In this document: positions 6,441-44,112 of the stretch, in pieces
How positions within the stretch are numbered: position 1 is the first letter of the stretch
Layout: each line of letters starts with the position of its first letter
Virus record (IMG/VR): IMGVR_UViG_3300033143_001696
Span: 1 to 44,112 of that record
From: a virus
Length of the DNA stretch: 44,112 bases
Reading direction: 5' to 3' (one strand)
Made by a program: the position numbers and the translations under genes
Notes under the pieces: generated by a model
Seen by the model: the letters and a program-made list of their open reading frames with translations, nothing else
Database searches by the model: none
What the model was told of the DNA's origin: nothing

Positions 6441-6917
6441 ATGGGCGGTAGAAGAGCAACAGGAGTGAACAACAGCGGGAAAAGAAGCGGCAAGAGGGAC
6501 GGCGGCGGCAGCGATGCAACCGAACTCATGAAAAATATTTCTATTGCCGCAGAGCACGCCAGAGCGTCAGTAATGACCGCACCCATCACAGAAATCACGG
6601 CGCTGGAGGTGATGCTCGAAAAGGACGGGGCGGAAACTTCCGCGACTGCCGCCATTCTGCAAGCCCTTGCCGCGATCAAATCCGACACGATGAGCAAGGC
6701 ATGGCTCGCATATTTCGAGGTCTATCAGAAGTACGGCATGGTTCCGACTGCGAAGATAGTAGAGATCGGCGAGCCCGAGGACAAAAAGAGCGACGCGGAA
6801 GAATACGCCGAGGATACTGCAGGCAAGGCGGCGGACGAAGAAGAGGAGAGACAAGCGTCGGATGACCTGGCAAAACAGCGGAAAAAGATGGTTGAAGAAG
6901 GGAAGAAAAAGCACTGA
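6441..6917 (+). CDS. Hypothetical helical protein, 158 aa
   Basis: Preceded by AAAGGAG. The N-terminus is Gly/Arg/Lys-rich, the centre is Ala/Glu helical, and the C-terminus is a highly charged Glu/Lys tail. It overlaps the following methyltransferase by one base. A small terminase subunit was considered because of the charged helical layout, but no helix-turn-helix was convincing. Confidence 0.7.
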   Translation: MGGRRATGVNNSGKRSGKRDGGGSDATELMKNISIAAEHARASVMTAPITEITALEVMLEKDGAETSATAAILQALAAIKSDTMSKAWLAYFEVYQKYGMVPTAKIVEIGEPEDKKSDAEEYAEDTAGKAADEEEERQASDDLAKQRKKMVEEGKKKH

Positions 6918-7558
6918 TGGAGCCCTACTACACCGAGCCGGGGATCGAGATCTACCATGGGGATTGCCGGGAGGTCTTGCCGGGGCTTGGGAAGGTGGAC
7001 CTTGTGTTGACTGACCCGCCGTATGGGATGGGCATGACGGGGCAGACGGGGGGAGCAGGAAAGGGGAAGGGTGCAACGCGAACAAGAGACTATGGCGATG
7101 TGGCATGGGATGGCGAGCCGGTCAATTGGGGGCTATTATGGGAGCTTTTGACGCTCGGCAAGTATGCCTGTTGTTGGGGTGGTAATTATTACCCGGTTCC
7201 CCCGTCACCCTCTTGGCTCGTTTGGGATAAAATGAATACAGGAAACTTTGCCGATTGTGAACTTGCATGGACGAATTACGGATCGGCTGTCAGAATAATT
7301 CACCATCTGTGGAATGGTATGGCGCGAAAAAACCTAGAGCCGAGATTTCACCCGACACAGAAACCCCTCGACGTGATGAAGTGGGCGATTACAAAATGCC
7401 CCGGTGAACCGCAAGCCATCCTCGACCCGTTCATGGGTTCCGGCACCACCCTGCGCGCTGTAAAGGACTTGGGCCGCAAGGCCATCGGGATCGAGATCGA
7501 GGAGAAGTACTGTGAGATCGCCGTGAAGAGATTGAGACAAGAGGTCTTAGATCTGTAG
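6917..7558 (+). CDS. Site-specific DNA methyltransferase (N6-adenine or N4-cytosine type)
   Basis: A 213-residue protein. DPPY lies at residues 33-36 (motif IV) and DPFMGSGTT near 170-178 (motif I), so the order is catalytic motif first, SAM-binding motif last, the beta-class layout. HPTQKP around 150 is the usual motif X neighbour, and GIEIEEKYCEIAVKRL is motif II. The target-recognition part between is short. Such phage methyltransferases often protect phage DNA from host restriction. No restriction endonuclease is adjacent, so it is an orphan. It closes the early operon. Confidence 0.88.
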   Translation: MEPYYTEPGIEIYHGDCREVLPGLGKVDLVLTDPPYGMGMTGQTGGAGKGKGATRTRDYGDVAWDGEPVNWGLLWELLTLGKYACCWGGNYYPVPPSPSWLVWDKMNTGNFADCELAWTNYGSAVRIIHHLWNGMARKNLEPRFHPTQKPLDVMKWAITKCPGEPQAILDPFMGSGTTLRAVKDLGRKAIGIEIEEKYCEIAVKRLRQEVLDL

Positions 7559-35589: not shown

Positions 35590-36075
35590 CTACTCGACCA
35601 CAACTACGCGATAGGGATCGCCCGAGCCGCCATTGAAATAGATCTTGAGCGAGCCATCATCCTGCACGGACATCGCCGCAGAATACCAGCCCACCCCGAA
35701 CATATACGCTGTCGGACTGTCACTGTATCCCCACGCCTGGATCGATGGTAGGTTAGATATATCCAAGGCCAGATAAAGCGTCGCCTCTGAAGACGAGTTG
35801 AACGTGCCAGAGTAAACCGTCCGCGTGCCGGGTCCGTCCAAGCCATCGGATCCATTCTGCCCGTCCTCGCCATTCTGCCCGTCGTCTCCATCCACGCCCG
35901 AATCCCCGTCAACTCCGTCCTGCCCATCACCCCCGCTTTCACCGTCCAGGCCATCCTCGCCGCTCAACCCGCCTTCCCCGTCTATCCCGTCCAGTCCCAT
36001 TCCGGCCGGCGGGTACTCATCACATCCCCCCAAAATCAGAAGCGCGATTATTATTGACATTGCTATTTTATTCAT
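35590..36075 (-). CDS. Collagen-like lipoprotein
   Basis: A 161-residue protein. Residues 1-17 form a signal peptide ending in LGGC (Cys18), a good lipobox; Asp19 follows, which in enteric bacteria favours retention in the inner membrane. Residues 27-83 are 19 uninterrupted collagen-type Gly-X-Y triplets rich in Asp (for example GLDGIDGEGG). The C-terminal 78 residues are a small beta-rich domain (TRTVYSGTFNSSSEATLYLA). It is predicted to be a surface-anchored, possibly trimeric rod. It may block superinfection or change adsorption, but this is inference. A plus-strand Pro/Ser-rich frame over the same DNA is a shadow. Confidence 0.82.
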   Translation of the reverse strand: MNKIAMSIIIALLILGGCDEYPPAGMGLDGIDGEGGLSGEDGLDGESGGDGQDGVDGDSGVDGDDGQNGEDGQNGSDGLDGPGTRTVYSGTFNSSSEATLYLALDISNLPSIQAWGYSDSPTAYMFGVGWYSAAMSVQDDGSLKIYFNGGSGDPYRVVVVE

Positions 36076-36262: not shown

Positions 36263-36600
36263 GACTTATCTGTCAGCCTTCCATATCCGGGGCGCAAGAA
36301 ATCACGCTTTGTAACCCAATTATCGCTCGCCCAAACAGTGACGAACGCTGATCCATCAGAGAATGAAACCGTGTGCTGAAAATCCATTTGCTGATTTATG
36401 CTTGCAGCAACTTCATCGGCGGAGAAATCACCGCTGAAATCGAGTCCTTTGACCCGCTCGCCGTTGATACAGAACACAACCTCGTCCGGGCCGTACTTCT
36501 TGCCCTCCGCCAACGCTGCAGGCGCTACCACCGCAGCCCCGACGACCAGCCCCATTGTTCGCAGAAATCCCCGCCTCGTTAGGATGCTTTCGTTTTTCAT
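36259..36600 (-). CDS. Tat-exported hypothetical protein
   Basis: A 113-residue protein. The start at 36,600 (ATG AAA AAC) has an AGGGAGG site 7 bases upstream; the longer frame to 36,816 lies inside the radical SAM gene. Residues 8-14 are TRRGFLR, a twin-arginine motif, followed by a hydrophobic stretch and an ALA-type cleavage site after residue 31. The mature part is 82 residues with one Cys (VVFCINGERVKGLD). Export of folded proteins through Tat is unusual for a phage gene. It overlaps the radical SAM gene by four bases. Confidence 0.75.
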   Translation of the reverse strand: MKNESILTRRGFLRTMGLVVGAAVVAPAALAEGKKYGPDEVVFCINGERVKGLDFSGDFSADEVAASINQQMDFQHTVSFSDGSAFVTVWASDNWVTKRDFLRPGYGRLTDKS

Positions 36601-37433
36601 GATGCCTCCCTGAACAGGTGTGCCATCGACGCGGGCCTTGCCCATGTCCGCTGAAATCGCTTCCACTCCCTTGACGGCACGGTGCTTTTGTTGTCCCTGT
36701 AGAGCATCGCCATCGGCAAGAAACCCGCCGCGATAGTATCGGTCAATCGCTTCGCTGCGTCGGAAGTGGTATCCCCTTTGAACCCTACCAGCACATAGGC
36801 GTGCAAGGCCCACCATGGACGACCGCTTGCCGTGCGCGTGAACCCTGCCGACTGCAACAACTGCCCCGCTTCAAAAAGTGGCTCACGGTCGGAGGGTGTA
36901 TCATATGCAAAATACATTGACTTCGGGTTCAGGCTTCGCAGCGTCTCAGCGTGGGCGGTGGTTAGCAGCTTCGCCTCAAGCCCACCCGTAAACTCTGCCT
37001 TGCGTGGCTGTCTCTTGAGCATGTCAACTACCGCCCCAAAATGCTCCGGCGATGCCGCAAGAATGTTCGAGTCAAGAATATTCCACCCGTCCATTATTGG
37101 CAGTTCTCGGATGTCACCCTCGCGCTTCCATACGTCGCAGAACCAGCATCGATTAGGACAACCCCGCGTGGTGATGGTATACCCGTGCCTGAGGTATTGC
37201 CCCGGCACGAATTCGCCGCCAGAATCTCCGACCGCTGGACCTCCCACCTTGACCGGCGCGACATGCTTCCACCACTTTTCGAGCGTTTCGACCATGGGCA
37301 GATCCCACGAGAACGAAGCGGATATATGAACCTCATCAGCGTCGTCAAAAAGCCCTGGCGGGCAACCGATCCGCACCATGTCGTCCGTTGGCGTGGCGTT
37401 CGTGCGGCGGGGGAATAGGCGGATAACCCTCAC
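36597..37433 (-). CDS. Radical SAM protein
   Basis: A 278-residue protein from a GTG at 37,433 with GGGGAG just before it. An upstream start at 37,538 is possible in frame, but that region encodes the Cys-rich protein in another frame. The CxxxCxxC cluster GCPNRCWFC lies at residues 91-99 and would bind a 4Fe-4S cluster and split S-adenosylmethionine. The N-terminal VIRLFPRRTNATPTDD and a later GGLEAKLLTTAHAETLRSL are typical of phage radical SAM proteins of unknown substrate. No SPASM domain is clear. It overlaps its neighbours on both sides. Confidence 0.8.
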   Translation of the reverse strand: MRVIRLFPRRTNATPTDDMVRIGCPPGLFDDADEVHISASFSWDLPMVETLEKWWKHVAPVKVGGPAVGDSGGEFVPGQYLRHGYTITTRGCPNRCWFCDVWKREGDIRELPIMDGWNILDSNILAASPEHFGAVVDMLKRQPRKAEFTGGLEAKLLTTAHAETLRSLNPKSMYFAYDTPSDREPLFEAGQLLQSAGFTRTASGRPWWALHAYVLVGFKGDTTSDAAKRLTDTIAAGFLPMAMLYRDNKSTVPSREWKRFQRTWARPASMAHLFREAS

Positions 37434-37582
37434 CTTCTCCCCTGCCTTTCGATCATCTTCCTCGCCACATCTCCCCTGATAATATGCTTGCATTTGGGCA
37501 TGTCGGCCACCGGGCCCGAGTAACAGCAGGCTCCGCACCCGTCATATGCGACAGCGTATCCGTGATGAATATAGGCGATCAT
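37430..37582 (-). CDS. Cys-rich small protein, 50 aa
   Basis: An ATG overlaps the stop of the zinc-ribbon gene and the TGA overlaps the radical SAM GTG. The sequence YDGCGACCYSGPVADMPKC has four cysteines within 17 residues. It could be a small zinc-binding protein, or a substrate or partner of the radical SAM enzyme that follows immediately. The two overlaps and short length are consistent with a genuine coupled gene. Confidence 0.6.
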   Translation of the reverse strand: MIAYIHHGYAVAYDGCGACCYSGPVADMPKCKHIIRGDVARKMIERQGRR

Positions 37583-40723: not shown

Positions 40724-41055
40724 GACGTCACTCGCCAAACCGTTGCCCGCATCCCCGTCGTCTTCGACTTCCGCACCCGCCCCGAATGCTCCACAAGAGG
40801 GGGGCGCATATTGCACAGGCTGTTGCGGGCGGAGACGATGGAGGTGTAGCGACAGCCCCCAACAAGTTTCGCGATCTCCTCATCGGTCATTCCATCCTGC
40901 TTGTAGCGCCACTTGAGATCGAGCACGCCCAACACCCGCTCCTTAATGCTCCGGTGCTTCCCCGTCTTGTCCATCGCCCTCGCCGCCGCGTTGGACGTGG
41001 GGGAGGCGTGAGCTGCGGGAGCGGGGCGGTTGAATAATGATTGTTGATCGTTCAT
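40720..41055 (-). CDS. Winged helix-turn-helix protein
   Basis: A 111-residue protein; ATG 41,055 follows AGGAGGG. The N-terminal 40 residues are flexible. Residues 45-105 form a winged HTH: IKERVLGVLD, then MTDEEIAKLVGGCRYTSIVS (helix-turn-helix), then LVEHSGRVRKSKTTGMRATV (wing). It is probably a transcription regulator or a replication/restart factor of the phage. Confidence 0.76.
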   Translation of the reverse strand: MNDQQSLFNRPAPAAHASPTSNAAARAMDKTGKHRSIKERVLGVLDLKWRYKQDGMTDEEIAKLVGGCRYTSIVSARNSLCNMRPPLVEHSGRVRKSKTTGMRATVWRVTS

Positions 41056-41783
41056 TGGTTCCCTCCTGTTAGTATCTCCCATGCGAGTCTTGCCACTGCT
41101 GGAACCTGTCCATTCCCAATGGCTTTAAGTCGGTCCAGTTCTCTGGCCAACGCATCAGGATTTCTGAGCACCGCGGCGTGTTCACCTTCTGATGCACACG
41201 CGCCAATTGCTCGTGCAAATTGCCGTCTCCGTGATTCTTTCGAATTAGTGATTTCATCCCCATGGTGTGTGGAATTGTGCTTGCTGTCGGGCGCAAAAGC
41301 ATAAATCCAGCATCTTTCACCGTTCGCACACCCCCCTGCGTGATGTCCTCCCAGCACACACCATCGCGCATCATACCCCATCGCGGCAAGATCACCGAGG
41401 ACCACGGCAAGTCCTCGACCCACAAGCAAAGGTGAGTTTTCCACGAACGCGAATCGAGGTCGTACTTCGCCGATAATTCTTGCCATCTCTCCCCATAGCC
41501 CAGATCGTGCTCCGGTGATCCCTGCGCCCTTGCCGGCGGCTGAGATGTCTTGACAGGGAAAGCCGCCCGAAACAACGTCAACAATTCCTTGCCACGGTCG
41601 TCCGTCAAAGGTTTCCACATCAGACCAAATGGGGAACGGCTCAAGACATCCATCATTTTGTCGTTGCGCCAGAACTGCCGCTGCGTAGGCATCACGTTCA
41701 ACAGCGCAGACGGTTCGCCAGCCAAGGAGGTGTCCTCCGAGTATGCCTCCACCAGCGCCCGCGAAAAGAGCCAACTCATGCAC
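41052..41783 (-). CDS. DNA cytosine C5 methyltransferase
   Basis: A 243-residue protein from a GTG at 41,783 with AGGAGGG five bases ahead. Motif I LFAGAGGG lies at 6-13, GGFPCQDIS with catalytic Cys77 at 73-81, ENS at 115-117, and motif X AIGNGQVP near 221. The motif VIII region reads CANGERCWIYAFA, altered from the usual QxRxR, and the recognition domain is short. Such phage enzymes shield DNA from restriction. Within it runs a second long frame from an ATG four bases later. A relic of its 5' end lies at 43,106-43,175. Confidence 0.87.
   Translation of the reverse strand: MHELALFAGAGGGILGGHLLGWRTVCAVERDAYAAAVLAQRQNDGCLEPFPIWSDVETFDGRPWQGIVDVVSGGFPCQDISAAGKGAGITGARSGLWGEMARIIGEVRPRFAFVENSPLLVGRGLAVVLGDLAAMGYDARWCVLGGHHAGGCANGERCWIYAFAPDSKHNSTHHGDEITNSKESRRRQFARAIGACASEGEHAAVLRNPDALARELDRLKAIGNGQVPAVARLAWEILTGGNQ
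41069..41779 (-). CDS. Alternative-frame protein overlapping the C5 methyltransferase
   Basis: An open frame of 236 codons in the +1 frame, wholly inside the methyltransferase gene. The ATG at 41,779 comes four bases after the GTG of the methyltransferase (GTG-C-ATG), so one ribosome-binding site could serve both. Landmarks are MSWLFSRALVEAYS at 1-14, SALLNVMPTQRQFWRND (24-40), RSWKTHLCLW (111-120), LPRWGMMRDG (131-140) and RWPENWTDL (210-218). From memory, phage proteins with this order of motifs are frequent in databases and often lie over cytosine methyltransferases, but I cannot verify that here. Confidence 0.6.
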   Translation of the reverse strand: MSWLFSRALVEAYSEDTSLAGEPSALLNVMPTQRQFWRNDKMMDVLSRSPFGLMWKPLTDDRGKELLTLFRAAFPVKTSQPPARAQGSPEHDLGYGERWQELSAKYDLDSRSWKTHLCLWVEDLPWSSVILPRWGMMRDGVCWEDITQGGVRTVKDAGFMLLRPTASTIPHTMGMKSLIRKNHGDGNLHEQLARVHQKVNTPRCSEILMRWPENWTDLKPLGMDRFQQWQDSHGRY

Positions 41784-41819
41784 TGTTTCCCTCCTCGCCC
41801 TCCGGCGGGCTGTGCTTTT

Positions 41820-42581
41820 TCATCCTTCCCCTCCTGTTCGTTTCTTGCGCTCGTCAAACATCGCCTCACGCTCTTCATTCGTCATCCGTTCCCCGTCGTC
41901 ATCATCCACAAACTCCTCCGGCTGCGGCCTGCCTGTGGTGTGAGCCTTCTCACGTTCCGCGCTACGGGCTGCGAACTGTGCCTGGTGGACTATGAGCCCA
42001 TGATTCTTAGAGTACGGCTCACGGGGATTCTGGTAAGCCTTAGCGGCTCTGAGAATGTCCGGGGTGATATTGAGCCCGGCGGATCCCCATGCGAGAACAG
42101 ACTGTTCGATCTGATCCTGCGGCCATTGAGGCCATAGCTCGAGGCAGAGCGCGACCAGGGGATGAGGGGGAACGATCGCCTCCTTGTCTTTATCCTCTTC
42201 ATATTGATCACGCGTGCGCGCCTCTCCCTCTGTCTCTCCTCTGTCTCTGATCTGATCTGAGCACGATTCTGGTGCATCTTGCGGGCATGTTGATAGCTCC
42301 GTGCTAGCATCACACTCAAGCCAATGAGATAATTCAGAAATGCTCTTTTCAACCTCTGTGATAGAGATCCGCAGTCGGAATGCTAGCACGCTGATTGCAG
42401 GAAGCTCGCCGGCCATCCCTGGATCCTCTGAGGCGATGAGCCAGAACATGAGCAGGTGTTTTACCGCGGCGCCCGACAACTCAAAAAATTCAGGGTCGTC
42501 GAGTAGGTCGCGGTAGAGCCGAATCCAGGGCGGTTTTCGGTTTTTGTAGTGCTGGAATTTCTCCCAGTTTTTGACCTTCAT
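41820..42581 (-). CDS. Replication initiator/replisome-organiser-like protein
   Basis: A 253-residue protein; the start at 42,581 overlaps the HTH gene stop by ATGA. An N-terminal winged-helix-like domain has WEKFQHYKNRKPPWIRLYRD and then FFELSGAAVKHLLMFWLIAS and LAFRLRISITEVEKSISEL, a pattern of phage replication proteins and DnaD/replisome-organiser N-domains. The C-terminus is acidic. It probably binds the phage origin and recruits host helicase. There is no helicase in the genome. Confidence 0.72.
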   Translation of the reverse strand: MKVKNWEKFQHYKNRKPPWIRLYRDLLDDPEFFELSGAAVKHLLMFWLIASEDPGMAGELPAISVLAFRLRISITEVEKSISELSHWLECDASTELSTCPQDAPESCSDQIRDRGETEGEARTRDQYEEDKDKEAIVPPHPLVALCLELWPQWPQDQIEQSVLAWGSAGLNITPDILRAAKAYQNPREPYSKNHGLIVHQAQFAARSAEREKAHTTGRPQPEEFVDDDDGERMTNEEREAMFDERKKRTGGEG

Positions 42582-42941: not shown

Positions 42942-43112
42942 ATGAAAATTATCAGGACATGGAAAGAAACCGGAGAACGCGAAGAGATAACAATGGACAC
43001 CCTGCGCTCCAATCTGCGCCTTCTCAACTTCCCACATGTGGAAGAAACCATCAATCACTTGATAGCGGGCGGATTGGTTCACACGCACCTCACAGGGTAT
43101 TCAGTTGCATGA
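42942..43112 (+). CDS. Hypothetical protein opening the early operon, 56 aa
   Basis: ATG at 42,942 with CAGGAG 7 bases ahead; an in-frame ATG at 42,909 coincides with the predicted transcription start and has no ribosome-binding site. The protein has MKIIRTWKETGEREEIT, then a helical LRSNLRLLNFPHVEETINHL and a strand. It looks like a small HTH-like or wing protein. Its stop lies inside the methyltransferase relic. Confidence 0.62.
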   Translation: MKIIRTWKETGEREEITMDTLRSNLRLLNFPHVEETINHLIAGGLVHTHLTGYSVA

Positions 43113-43175
43113 GTTGGCTCTTTTCGCAGGCGCTGGCGGAGGCATACCCGGGGACATCTCCTCGGATGGCGAAAC
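43106..43175. repeat. Relic of the C5 methyltransferase 5' end
   Basis: About 70 bases match, in inverted orientation, the start of the methyltransferase gene (41,712-41,782). The first 44 or so bases differ at only three or four positions and similarity fades after that with small gaps. Both frames of the source locus can be read: MHELALFAGAGGGIPG (here from a TTG) and MSWLFSQALAEAYPG (ATG at 43,109), the latter ending at 43,186. Confidence 0.8.
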
Positions 43176-43182
43176 ACGGGAA

Positions 43183-43419
43183 ATGACGCCGCGAGAGAAA
43201 TGGTTGAAAGTCTGGTATGCCGCCGCCGGGAAATGGATCCGCGAGCACCCGAAGCCGAAGGCGATTGACCGCGTCGAGCGGCAAGAATGGGGTGAGAGCA
43301 AAGAGCGGTTCCGGCAACAGTGGCAGCGTGAAAACCCATCGCCACCACTGACGGCGGGCGAGCGCGGCGAGTGCAATAAACTTATAAAACTGAACAGCAT
43401 CATGACGGGGCAGAAATAA
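43183..43419 (+). CDS. Hypothetical basic protein, 78 aa (possible fused N-terminus)
   Basis: The start ATG 43,183 begins TPREKWLKVWYAAAGKWIRE, a basic Trp-rich helical protein. The frame is open upstream to a TTG at 43,105, which would add 26 residues derived from the methyltransferase N-terminus. The ribosome-binding site before ATG 43,183 is weak (GGGAA), so the true start is uncertain. No family recognised. Confidence 0.55.
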   Translation: MTPREKWLKVWYAAAGKWIREHPKPKAIDRVERQEWGESKERFRQQWQRENPSPPLTAGERGECNKLIKLNSIMTGQK

Positions 43420-43677: not shown

Positions 43678-44112
43678 GCTGTCGAGAGAGGAGTGGCTGG
43701 CAAAGCGCCGGGAATACATCGGCGCGAGTGACGCAGCGGCCATCCTCGGCGCGGATCCGCGAAGGGGGGCTTTGGCTGTATTTGAGTCCAAGGTTACAGG
43801 CTACAGCTCCGATGATAACAAGTGGATGAAGTACGGGCGCGATATTGAGGGCGCGATTGCGAATATGTACAGCGAGGAGACGGGGCGAGAAGTGATAGAC
43901 CTGGGAGCAACCACGATCACGGTTCACCCTGACCTGCCTTTTCTCGGTGCGACATTGGACAGGCAGACGCACAAAGAAATGGATGAGGGCCCACACGGCC
44001 CCCTCGAGCTCAAGTCAATCGACCCCTACGGCGCGAAAGTCTATCCAGACCAGTTCGCCGAGGAGCCCCCGTTGCATATGCTGATTCAGCTCATGATCCA
44101 GATGGCGTGTAC
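43631..44112 (+). CDS. YqaJ-type exonuclease, N-terminal part
   Basis: The 5' portion of the gene that continues at position 2 of the window. Possible starts are ATG 43,631, ATG 43,658 and GTG 43,667; the first is listed, although the family-like sequence begins at SREEWLAKRREYIGASDAAA. That segment, then KYGRDIEGAIANMY and FLGATLDR, are the nuclease landmarks before LELKS. The gene overlaps the previous one. The reading frame is closed only by joining the contig ends. Confidence 0.87.
   Translation, partial: MRRPYRLHRMVPVSVELSREEWLAKRREYIGASDAAAILGADPRRGALAVFESKVTGYSSDDNKWMKYGRDIEGAIANMYSEETGREVIDLGATTITVHPDLPFLGATLDRQTHKEMDEGPHGPLELKSIDPYGAKVYPDQFAEEPPLHMLIQLMIQMAC
43999..44112. repeat. 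Terminal direct repeat, right copy
   Basis: Identical to bases 1-114. The base before it (43,998) is G, and the exonuclease frame runs through it in register, which supports joining the ends to a 43,998-bp circle. Confidence 0.95.

Follow-up and report, generated by a model that had tools for sequence, protein, structure and literature searches.

Two reading frames in one stretch of phage DNA

The window analysed here, a virus record of 44,112 bases, carries two long reading frames on its minus strand that occupy nearly the same DNA (Table 1). The preliminary description of this stretch had reported frames of 243 and 236 codons in the +1 register, with GTG and ATG starts behind a single AGGAGGG. 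Our coordinates bear this out. The frames, which we call f0 and f1, have 711 of 732 bp in common; the GTG of f0 (41783) and the ATG of f1 (41779) are 4 nt apart, and the AGGAGGG lies 5 nt from the former and 9 nt from the latter. f1, whose product would begin MSWLF, ends in a TAA at 41069-41071, and the TGA of f0 overlaps the ATG of the next gene. In the window the f1 frame stays open farther 5', as far as an ATG at 41878. The ATG at 41779 is the likely start, because a TGA or TAA directly precedes the f1 ATG in most relatives.

f0 matches the Pfam family DNA_methylase (PF00145; 7e-25, residues 6-183) and phrog_363 (2.5e-50), and in a phmmer comparison it aligns to residues 16-174 only of M.HhaI. 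Motifs I, IV, VI and X, already recognized in the preliminary description, were found again (ALFAGAGGG, GGFPCQ, ENS and KAIGNGQVP). With motif VIII, they give the series of a C5-cytosine DNA methyltransferase in the right order: I, IV (PCQ), VI (EN), VIII and X. Motif VIII is atypical, with NGER in place of QRxR. In monomeric C5-methyltransferases the TRD and motif IX lie between motifs VIII and X. Neither was found on the f0 chain from its alignment with M.HhaI and its motif positions, and the 54-residue linker between VIII and X is too short to hold both. With I-VIII and X present and IX absent, f0 shows the pattern of the large subunit of EcoHK31I-type enzymes.

Table 1. Features of the overlapping locus in the window.
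Feature	Position	Strand	Remarks
f0, catalytic (alpha-like) subunit, C5-cytosine methyltransferase	41052..41783	-	243 aa, GTG start, TGA stop
f1, proposed TRD/motif IX (beta-like) subunit, +1 frame of f0	41069..41779	-	236 aa, ATG start, TAA stop
AGGAGGG, Shine-Dalgarno-like site before both starts	41789..41795	-	sequence
f0 motif I, ALFAGAGGG	41745..41771	-	
f0 motif IV, GGFPCQDIS (catalytic Cys)	41541..41567	-	aligned to M.HhaI
f0 motif VI, VENSP	41430..41444	-	
f0 motif VIII region, GERCWI	41304..41321	-	QRDRIWI in relatives
f0 linker between VIII and X, 54 aa	41136..41297	-	near-neutral in f0, dN/dS 0.84 [0.69-1.05]
f0 motif X, RLKAIGNGQVPAVA	41091..41132	-	
f1 conserved block, SWKTHLCLWVEDLPWSSVILPRWGMMRDG	41360..41446	-	W113, T115, P132, G135 and G140 at least 90% conserved
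f1 variable segment, proposed TRD	41183..41323	-	f1 dN/dS 0.24 [0.19-0.30] in the VIII-X span
f1 motif IX-like segment, NTPRCSEILMRWPENWTD	41129..41182	-	family consensus LNPxWVEWLMGWPxGWTD

The window is probably a complete circular assembly of ~43,998 bp, since it ends in a 114-bp direct terminal repeat (1-114 and 43999-44112). An ORF that apparently runs across both ends is one we take to be YqaJ-like, and Pfam recognizes a terminase and a Baseplate_J protein. Elsewhere in the window are an N6/N4 DNA methylase (6917-7558, +; Pfam 1.2e-23) and a weak Pfam match to Methyltransf_11 (575-1063, +); judged from these matches, the phage may carry two or three methyltransferases. At 43106-43173 (+), in the opposite orientation, lies a 68-bp segment that repeats the beginning of the f0/f1 gene with 90% identity and is joined in frame with an unrelated short ORF (43105-43419). 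It appears to be what remains of the 5' end of a second methyltransferase gene. Other ORFs encode a Radical SAM-like protein (36597-37538, -; Pfam 3.9e-5, below the curated cut-off) and a product with collagen-like glycine-rich repeats after a lipoprotein-like start (35590-36075, -).

Conservation and selection in the two frames

Relatives for a count of stop codons were collected with f0 peptides only, giving 62 non-redundant loci with less than 90% mutual identity. Stops in f1 were counted from codon 2 to motif X, and the expectation was taken from synonymous shuffles. No internal stop was observed in f1, against 241.4 expected, and all 62 loci were stop-free, against 0.78 expected; the third frame of the same loci contains 926 stops. 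Thus none of the relatives found through f0 has an f1 broken by stops beside an intact f0. When the codons of the window's own f0 were shuffled synonymously, f1 stayed open for 236 codons in 49 of 20,000 cases (0.25%). Of 255 scorable viral and cellular loci, 254 have f1 in the +1 register relative to f0; in the lone exception (L260) an indel has exchanged the frames. Because an f1 profile was used to find the cellular loci, these give no unbiased view of f1 integrity. Breaks by a single stop are rare and occur both ways, in f0 (L090, L221, L243, L246) and in f1 (L010). Three loci taken at first as having a broken f0 and an intact f1 (L014-L016) were rejected, since an indel switches their frames.

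Substitution rates were compared with an OLGenie-like count, a simplified method that uses single-site classification, Jukes-Cantor correction, a codon bootstrap and independent pairs. f1 is constrained, with dNN/dNS of 0.28 [0.23-0.34] against 1.65 for the +2 frame as a negative control, and dSN/dSS of 0.15 [0.07-0.26] against 1.19; for f0, dNN/dSN is 0.20. Both frames are under purifying selection, and the contrast between the +1 and +2 frames is large despite the simplified count. These results, with the conservation of both frames, support the earlier idea that both are functional. Changes at f0 codon positions 1 and 3, which are f1 positions 3 and 2, occur in a ratio of 0.86-0.97 among relatives 6-20% apart. 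The ratio is mostly 0.08-0.45 in the flanking genes of close relatives, at up to ~27% divergence, few such genes being comparable. The f1 proteins are 43% identical in pairwise comparisons versus 28% with shuffled codons; this excess is weak on its own, because the third frame also exceeds its shuffle (39% versus 27%). At the RNA level, Rfam found no family at the locus and the local fold is unremarkable (z = -0.01).

Selection shows a division of labour between the frames. Before motif VIII, dN/dS is 0.08 for f0 and 0.36 for f1, and from motif X onward it is 0.33 and 0.59. In the VIII-X span the order is reversed, with 0.24 for f1 and 0.84 for f0 (intervals in Table 1), so this DNA is constrained as f1.

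The start region was examined with a fixed pattern, NNN-[AATGAG/CGTGAG/CATGAG]-[CT]TGG followed by motif I, which matched 164 distinct loci. The f0 start codon is ATG in 90 of them, GTG in 44 and TTG in 13. In 12 the position holds TTA and the ATG of f1 is kept. This is also the state of L022, L070, L082, L091, L097 and other TTAAATGAG loci, in which f0 must start elsewhere, perhaps at a TTG three codons on. Nine loci have a different f0 N-terminus (L032, L035, L044, L056, L057, L062, L079, L080, L083). Their f1 again begins MSW, MTW or MAW, followed in most by a similar [LMI][IF]S-x-A segment, and its start lies 20-35 nt 5' of the aligned f0 start, in a register that differs from that of f0. 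The recurrence of this start in another register points to conservation of the f1 N-terminus as protein and not as a shadow of f0.

Relationship of f1 to split methyltransferases

A database search of the 236-residue frame led to a named family: phrog_1008 (PHROG 1008, 'DNA methyltransferase') matches all 75 of 75 f1 proteins of relatives. The window's own f1 is divergent (TPRCSEILMRWPENWTD) and matches at only 1.1e-5. The same profile matches gp77 of Mycobacterium phage Eagle (1.7e-79), gp50 of Paenibacillus phage Diva (1.1e-73), a +1 frame of Streptomyces phage phiBT1 that carries no annotation (1.4e-40) and, in Mycobacterium phage DotProduct, the C-terminal third of gp64 (6.5e-81), a single-chain protein in which motifs I-VIII are followed by MGWPAGWV and IIGNGV, all in one frame. 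An hhalign comparison of f1 with an alignment of Eagle, Diva and other such proteins gave a probability of 99.8 (E 5.9e-28). By these profile comparisons, f1 is homologous to the C-terminal halves of phage C5-methyltransferases, both split and single-chain. A longer methyltransferase family, phrog_116, matches Eagle gp77 and phiBT1 downstream of the match of the catalytic half.

Two members of the family whose f1 begins MSW, L174 and L176, have an f0 that stops right after motif VIII. Their f1 carries the variable part or TRD, then LNPDWVEWLMGWPVGWT (IX) and then RLKAIGNGQ, which is motif X. Together with the phrog_1008 and hhalign homology, this makes f1 most likely the other part of the enzyme. 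In DotProduct gp64 and Eagle gp77, as in L174 and L176, a segment of the motif IX-like kind lies ahead of motif X within a single frame. Pfam gave no convincing match for f1 or f1-type proteins, and sequence and profile searches of solved structures with f1-type proteins returned no methyltransferase, so the assignment of motif IX in f1 rests on pattern, position and the chain of homology. AlphaFold2 models of f1 alone were not usable (mean pLDDT 54 with 75 relatives and 57 with 133), and a Foldseek search with the first of them found no fold match. The conserved N-terminal 110-140 residues of f1, for which we found no counterpart in M.HhaI-type enzymes, are absent from short forms of f1 in related phages.

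The observed arrangements can be ordered by type, the direction of change not being established by this ordering. They are a single chain (DotProduct); a catalytic half and a half with the TRD, IX and X that overlap partially (Eagle, phiBT1, Orcanus, KHumphrey, L174, L176); a catalytic half that includes X, with a shorter f1 nested in it (Bacteroides BX788P2, Stenotrophomonas S72, Diva); and the type of the window, with f1 extended up to the f0 start. L174 and L176 (1497-2592) are natural intermediates between the overlapping enzymes and those that are simply split. Both frames are intact in hundreds of related phages and prophages from many bacterial phyla. Related loci occur in phages of Vibrio, Salmonella, Klebsiella and Microcystis, and cellular ones in Pseudomonas, Acinetobacter, Citrobacter, Chromobacterium, Nitrosomonas, Akkermansia, Desulforhopalus, Geothrix, Patescibacteria and others.

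The public records that we inspected mostly annotate one frame. f0 is named in those of E. coli PT62 (a prophage), Salmonella S9-5 and Klebsiella BUCT711, and f1 is a 'hypothetical protein' in Pseudomonas phPA-G and Vibrio 1.291.O; both frames are listed in Diva, where gp50 is recorded as 'g49 internal gene'. In phiBT1 (L277) an unannotated ORF that matches PHROG 1008 (1141-2070, +) lies beside gene 9.1, whose record notes that the 'DNA methylase may be inactive'. Going by this match, the ORF is probably the missing half of gene 9.1.

A proposed enzyme encoded in two frames

We consider it very probable that the two frames of the locus specify a single heterodimeric C5-cytosine methyltransferase, with f0 as the catalytic and f1 as the TRD/motif IX subunit. 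f0 would contribute SAM binding, the PCQ cysteine and motifs VI, VIII and X, and f1 the small domain, with the DNA-recognising TRD and the motif IX that f0 lacks. Because their starts lie within 4 nt behind one ribosome-binding site, both subunits would be made at the same place and time. Once assembled, the enzyme would methylate a specific site in the phage DNA. Phage methyltransferases usually serve to protect against restriction, and here too methylation would most likely shield the phage DNA from host restriction. Translation of f1, heterodimer formation, activity, specificity and a protective role are what we infer, whereas the conservation of both frames under purifying selection, the division of labour between them in selection and the homology of f1 to C-terminal methyltransferase halves are shown by the sequences.

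Alternatively, f1 could be a separate overprinted protein, such as an anti-restriction factor or a regulator, and not a methyltransferase subunit. Its N-terminal 110-140 residues, absent from the short forms, may indeed do something else. However, phrog_1008 and hhalign tie f1 to the C-terminal halves of split and single-chain methyltransferases, f0 is without a TRD and motif IX, motif X is on f1 in L174 and L176, and f0 is near-neutral exactly where f1 is constrained; we regard this reading as very unlikely. A programmed +1 frameshift near motif VIII, fusing f0 to f1 into a single-chain enzyme with no separate initiation of f1, would suit L174, L176 and Eagle, in which f0 breaks off shortly after motif VIII and the remainder is on f1. 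It is a very unlikely account of the locus, since f1 is already open and under constraint 5' of motif VIII (dN/dS 0.36) and has its own conserved ATG or GTG start, usually with a stop directly 5', while f0 keeps motif X downstream in the main family. That f1 is not a protein at all, its openness arising from codon or dinucleotide bias or from an RNA-level constraint, is scarcely credible: long +1 frames do occur by chance, as the shuffles of the window show, but not with 0 versus 241 stops over 62 loci, substitutions that follow f1 codon position, an f1 start motif kept in different registers, and a locus with neither a notable RNA fold nor an Rfam family.

Beyond the heterodimer itself, we think it reasonably likely that the locus belongs to a widespread phage family in which catalysis and DNA recognition are encoded in two frames of nearly identical DNA of 0.7-0.9 kb with starts 4 nt apart. 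Specificity would evolve in one frame while the other there encodes a near-neutral linker, and the N-terminal part of f1 would be an extra domain gained by extending f1 to the f0 start.

One of the closest parallels known is EcoHK31I, in which the small-subunit gene lies inside the large-subunit gene in another frame. Compared by description only, M.EcoHK31I (YGGCCR) resembles the proposed enzyme in having two polypeptides, the larger with motifs I-VIII and X and the smaller with IX, but its predicted TRD is in the large subunit (PMC3404938), whereas selection places the TRD of the window's enzyme in f1. The overlap in the window is also almost complete, with starts 4 nt apart, and the window copy is from a phage, whereas EcoHK31I is part of a restriction-modification system. 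M.AquI (CYCGRG) is a two-polypeptide C5-methyltransferase split in the variable region after motif VIII (PMC3404938). L174, L176, Eagle gp78/gp77 and phiBT1 resemble its split; in AquI, however, motif X is in the small subunit, and in the window it is on f0. Among phages, Diva gp49/gp50 and Eagle gp78/gp77 are nested or adjacent methyltransferase genes in the +1 frame, and gp50 and gp77 are f1 homologues. They differ in that the internal gene of Diva starts 184 nt into gp49, and that the Eagle subunits are annotated with a 23-bp overlap and have motif X in gp77.

The ShiLan domain, an out-of-frame HNH endonuclease in a phage methylase, is likewise a hidden overlapping frame in a phage DNA methylase, but it is a homing endonuclease within an insertion and not an enzyme subunit (PMC11855218). 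Inside the methylase gene of DotProduct (L275) we observed an out-of-frame ORF (395-904, +) with an AGLIDGEG-like motif, perhaps a hidden homing endonuclease comparable to the ShiLan insertion (PMC11855218).

In the open-access literature that we searched, no paper describing the phage f0/f1 overlap was found, an absence that is weak evidence of novelty. The preliminary description had suggested that f1 might be an undescribed partner such as a specificity factor. A role in specificity fits the homology; a wholly undescribed partner does not, given PHROG 1008, the split C5-methyltransferases and the Diva record. PHROG 1008 is, however, called just a DNA methyltransferase, and its overlap with the catalytic gene and its role as a subunit are not stated. 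Split C5-methyltransferases are thus already known, and it is the near-total overlap, its breadth and its non-annotation that look new.

An enzyme whose two subunits are encoded in almost wholly overlapping genes would be an extreme case of gene compression. Because most of the inspected records annotate just one of the frames, many database entries for 'DNA cytosine methyltransferases' may describe only half of an enzyme, its recognition subunit being left without annotation or listed as 'hypothetical', which may explain remarks such as 'may be inactive' for phiBT1 9.1. The family would also offer a natural system for the evolution of specificity where every change also alters the partner protein.
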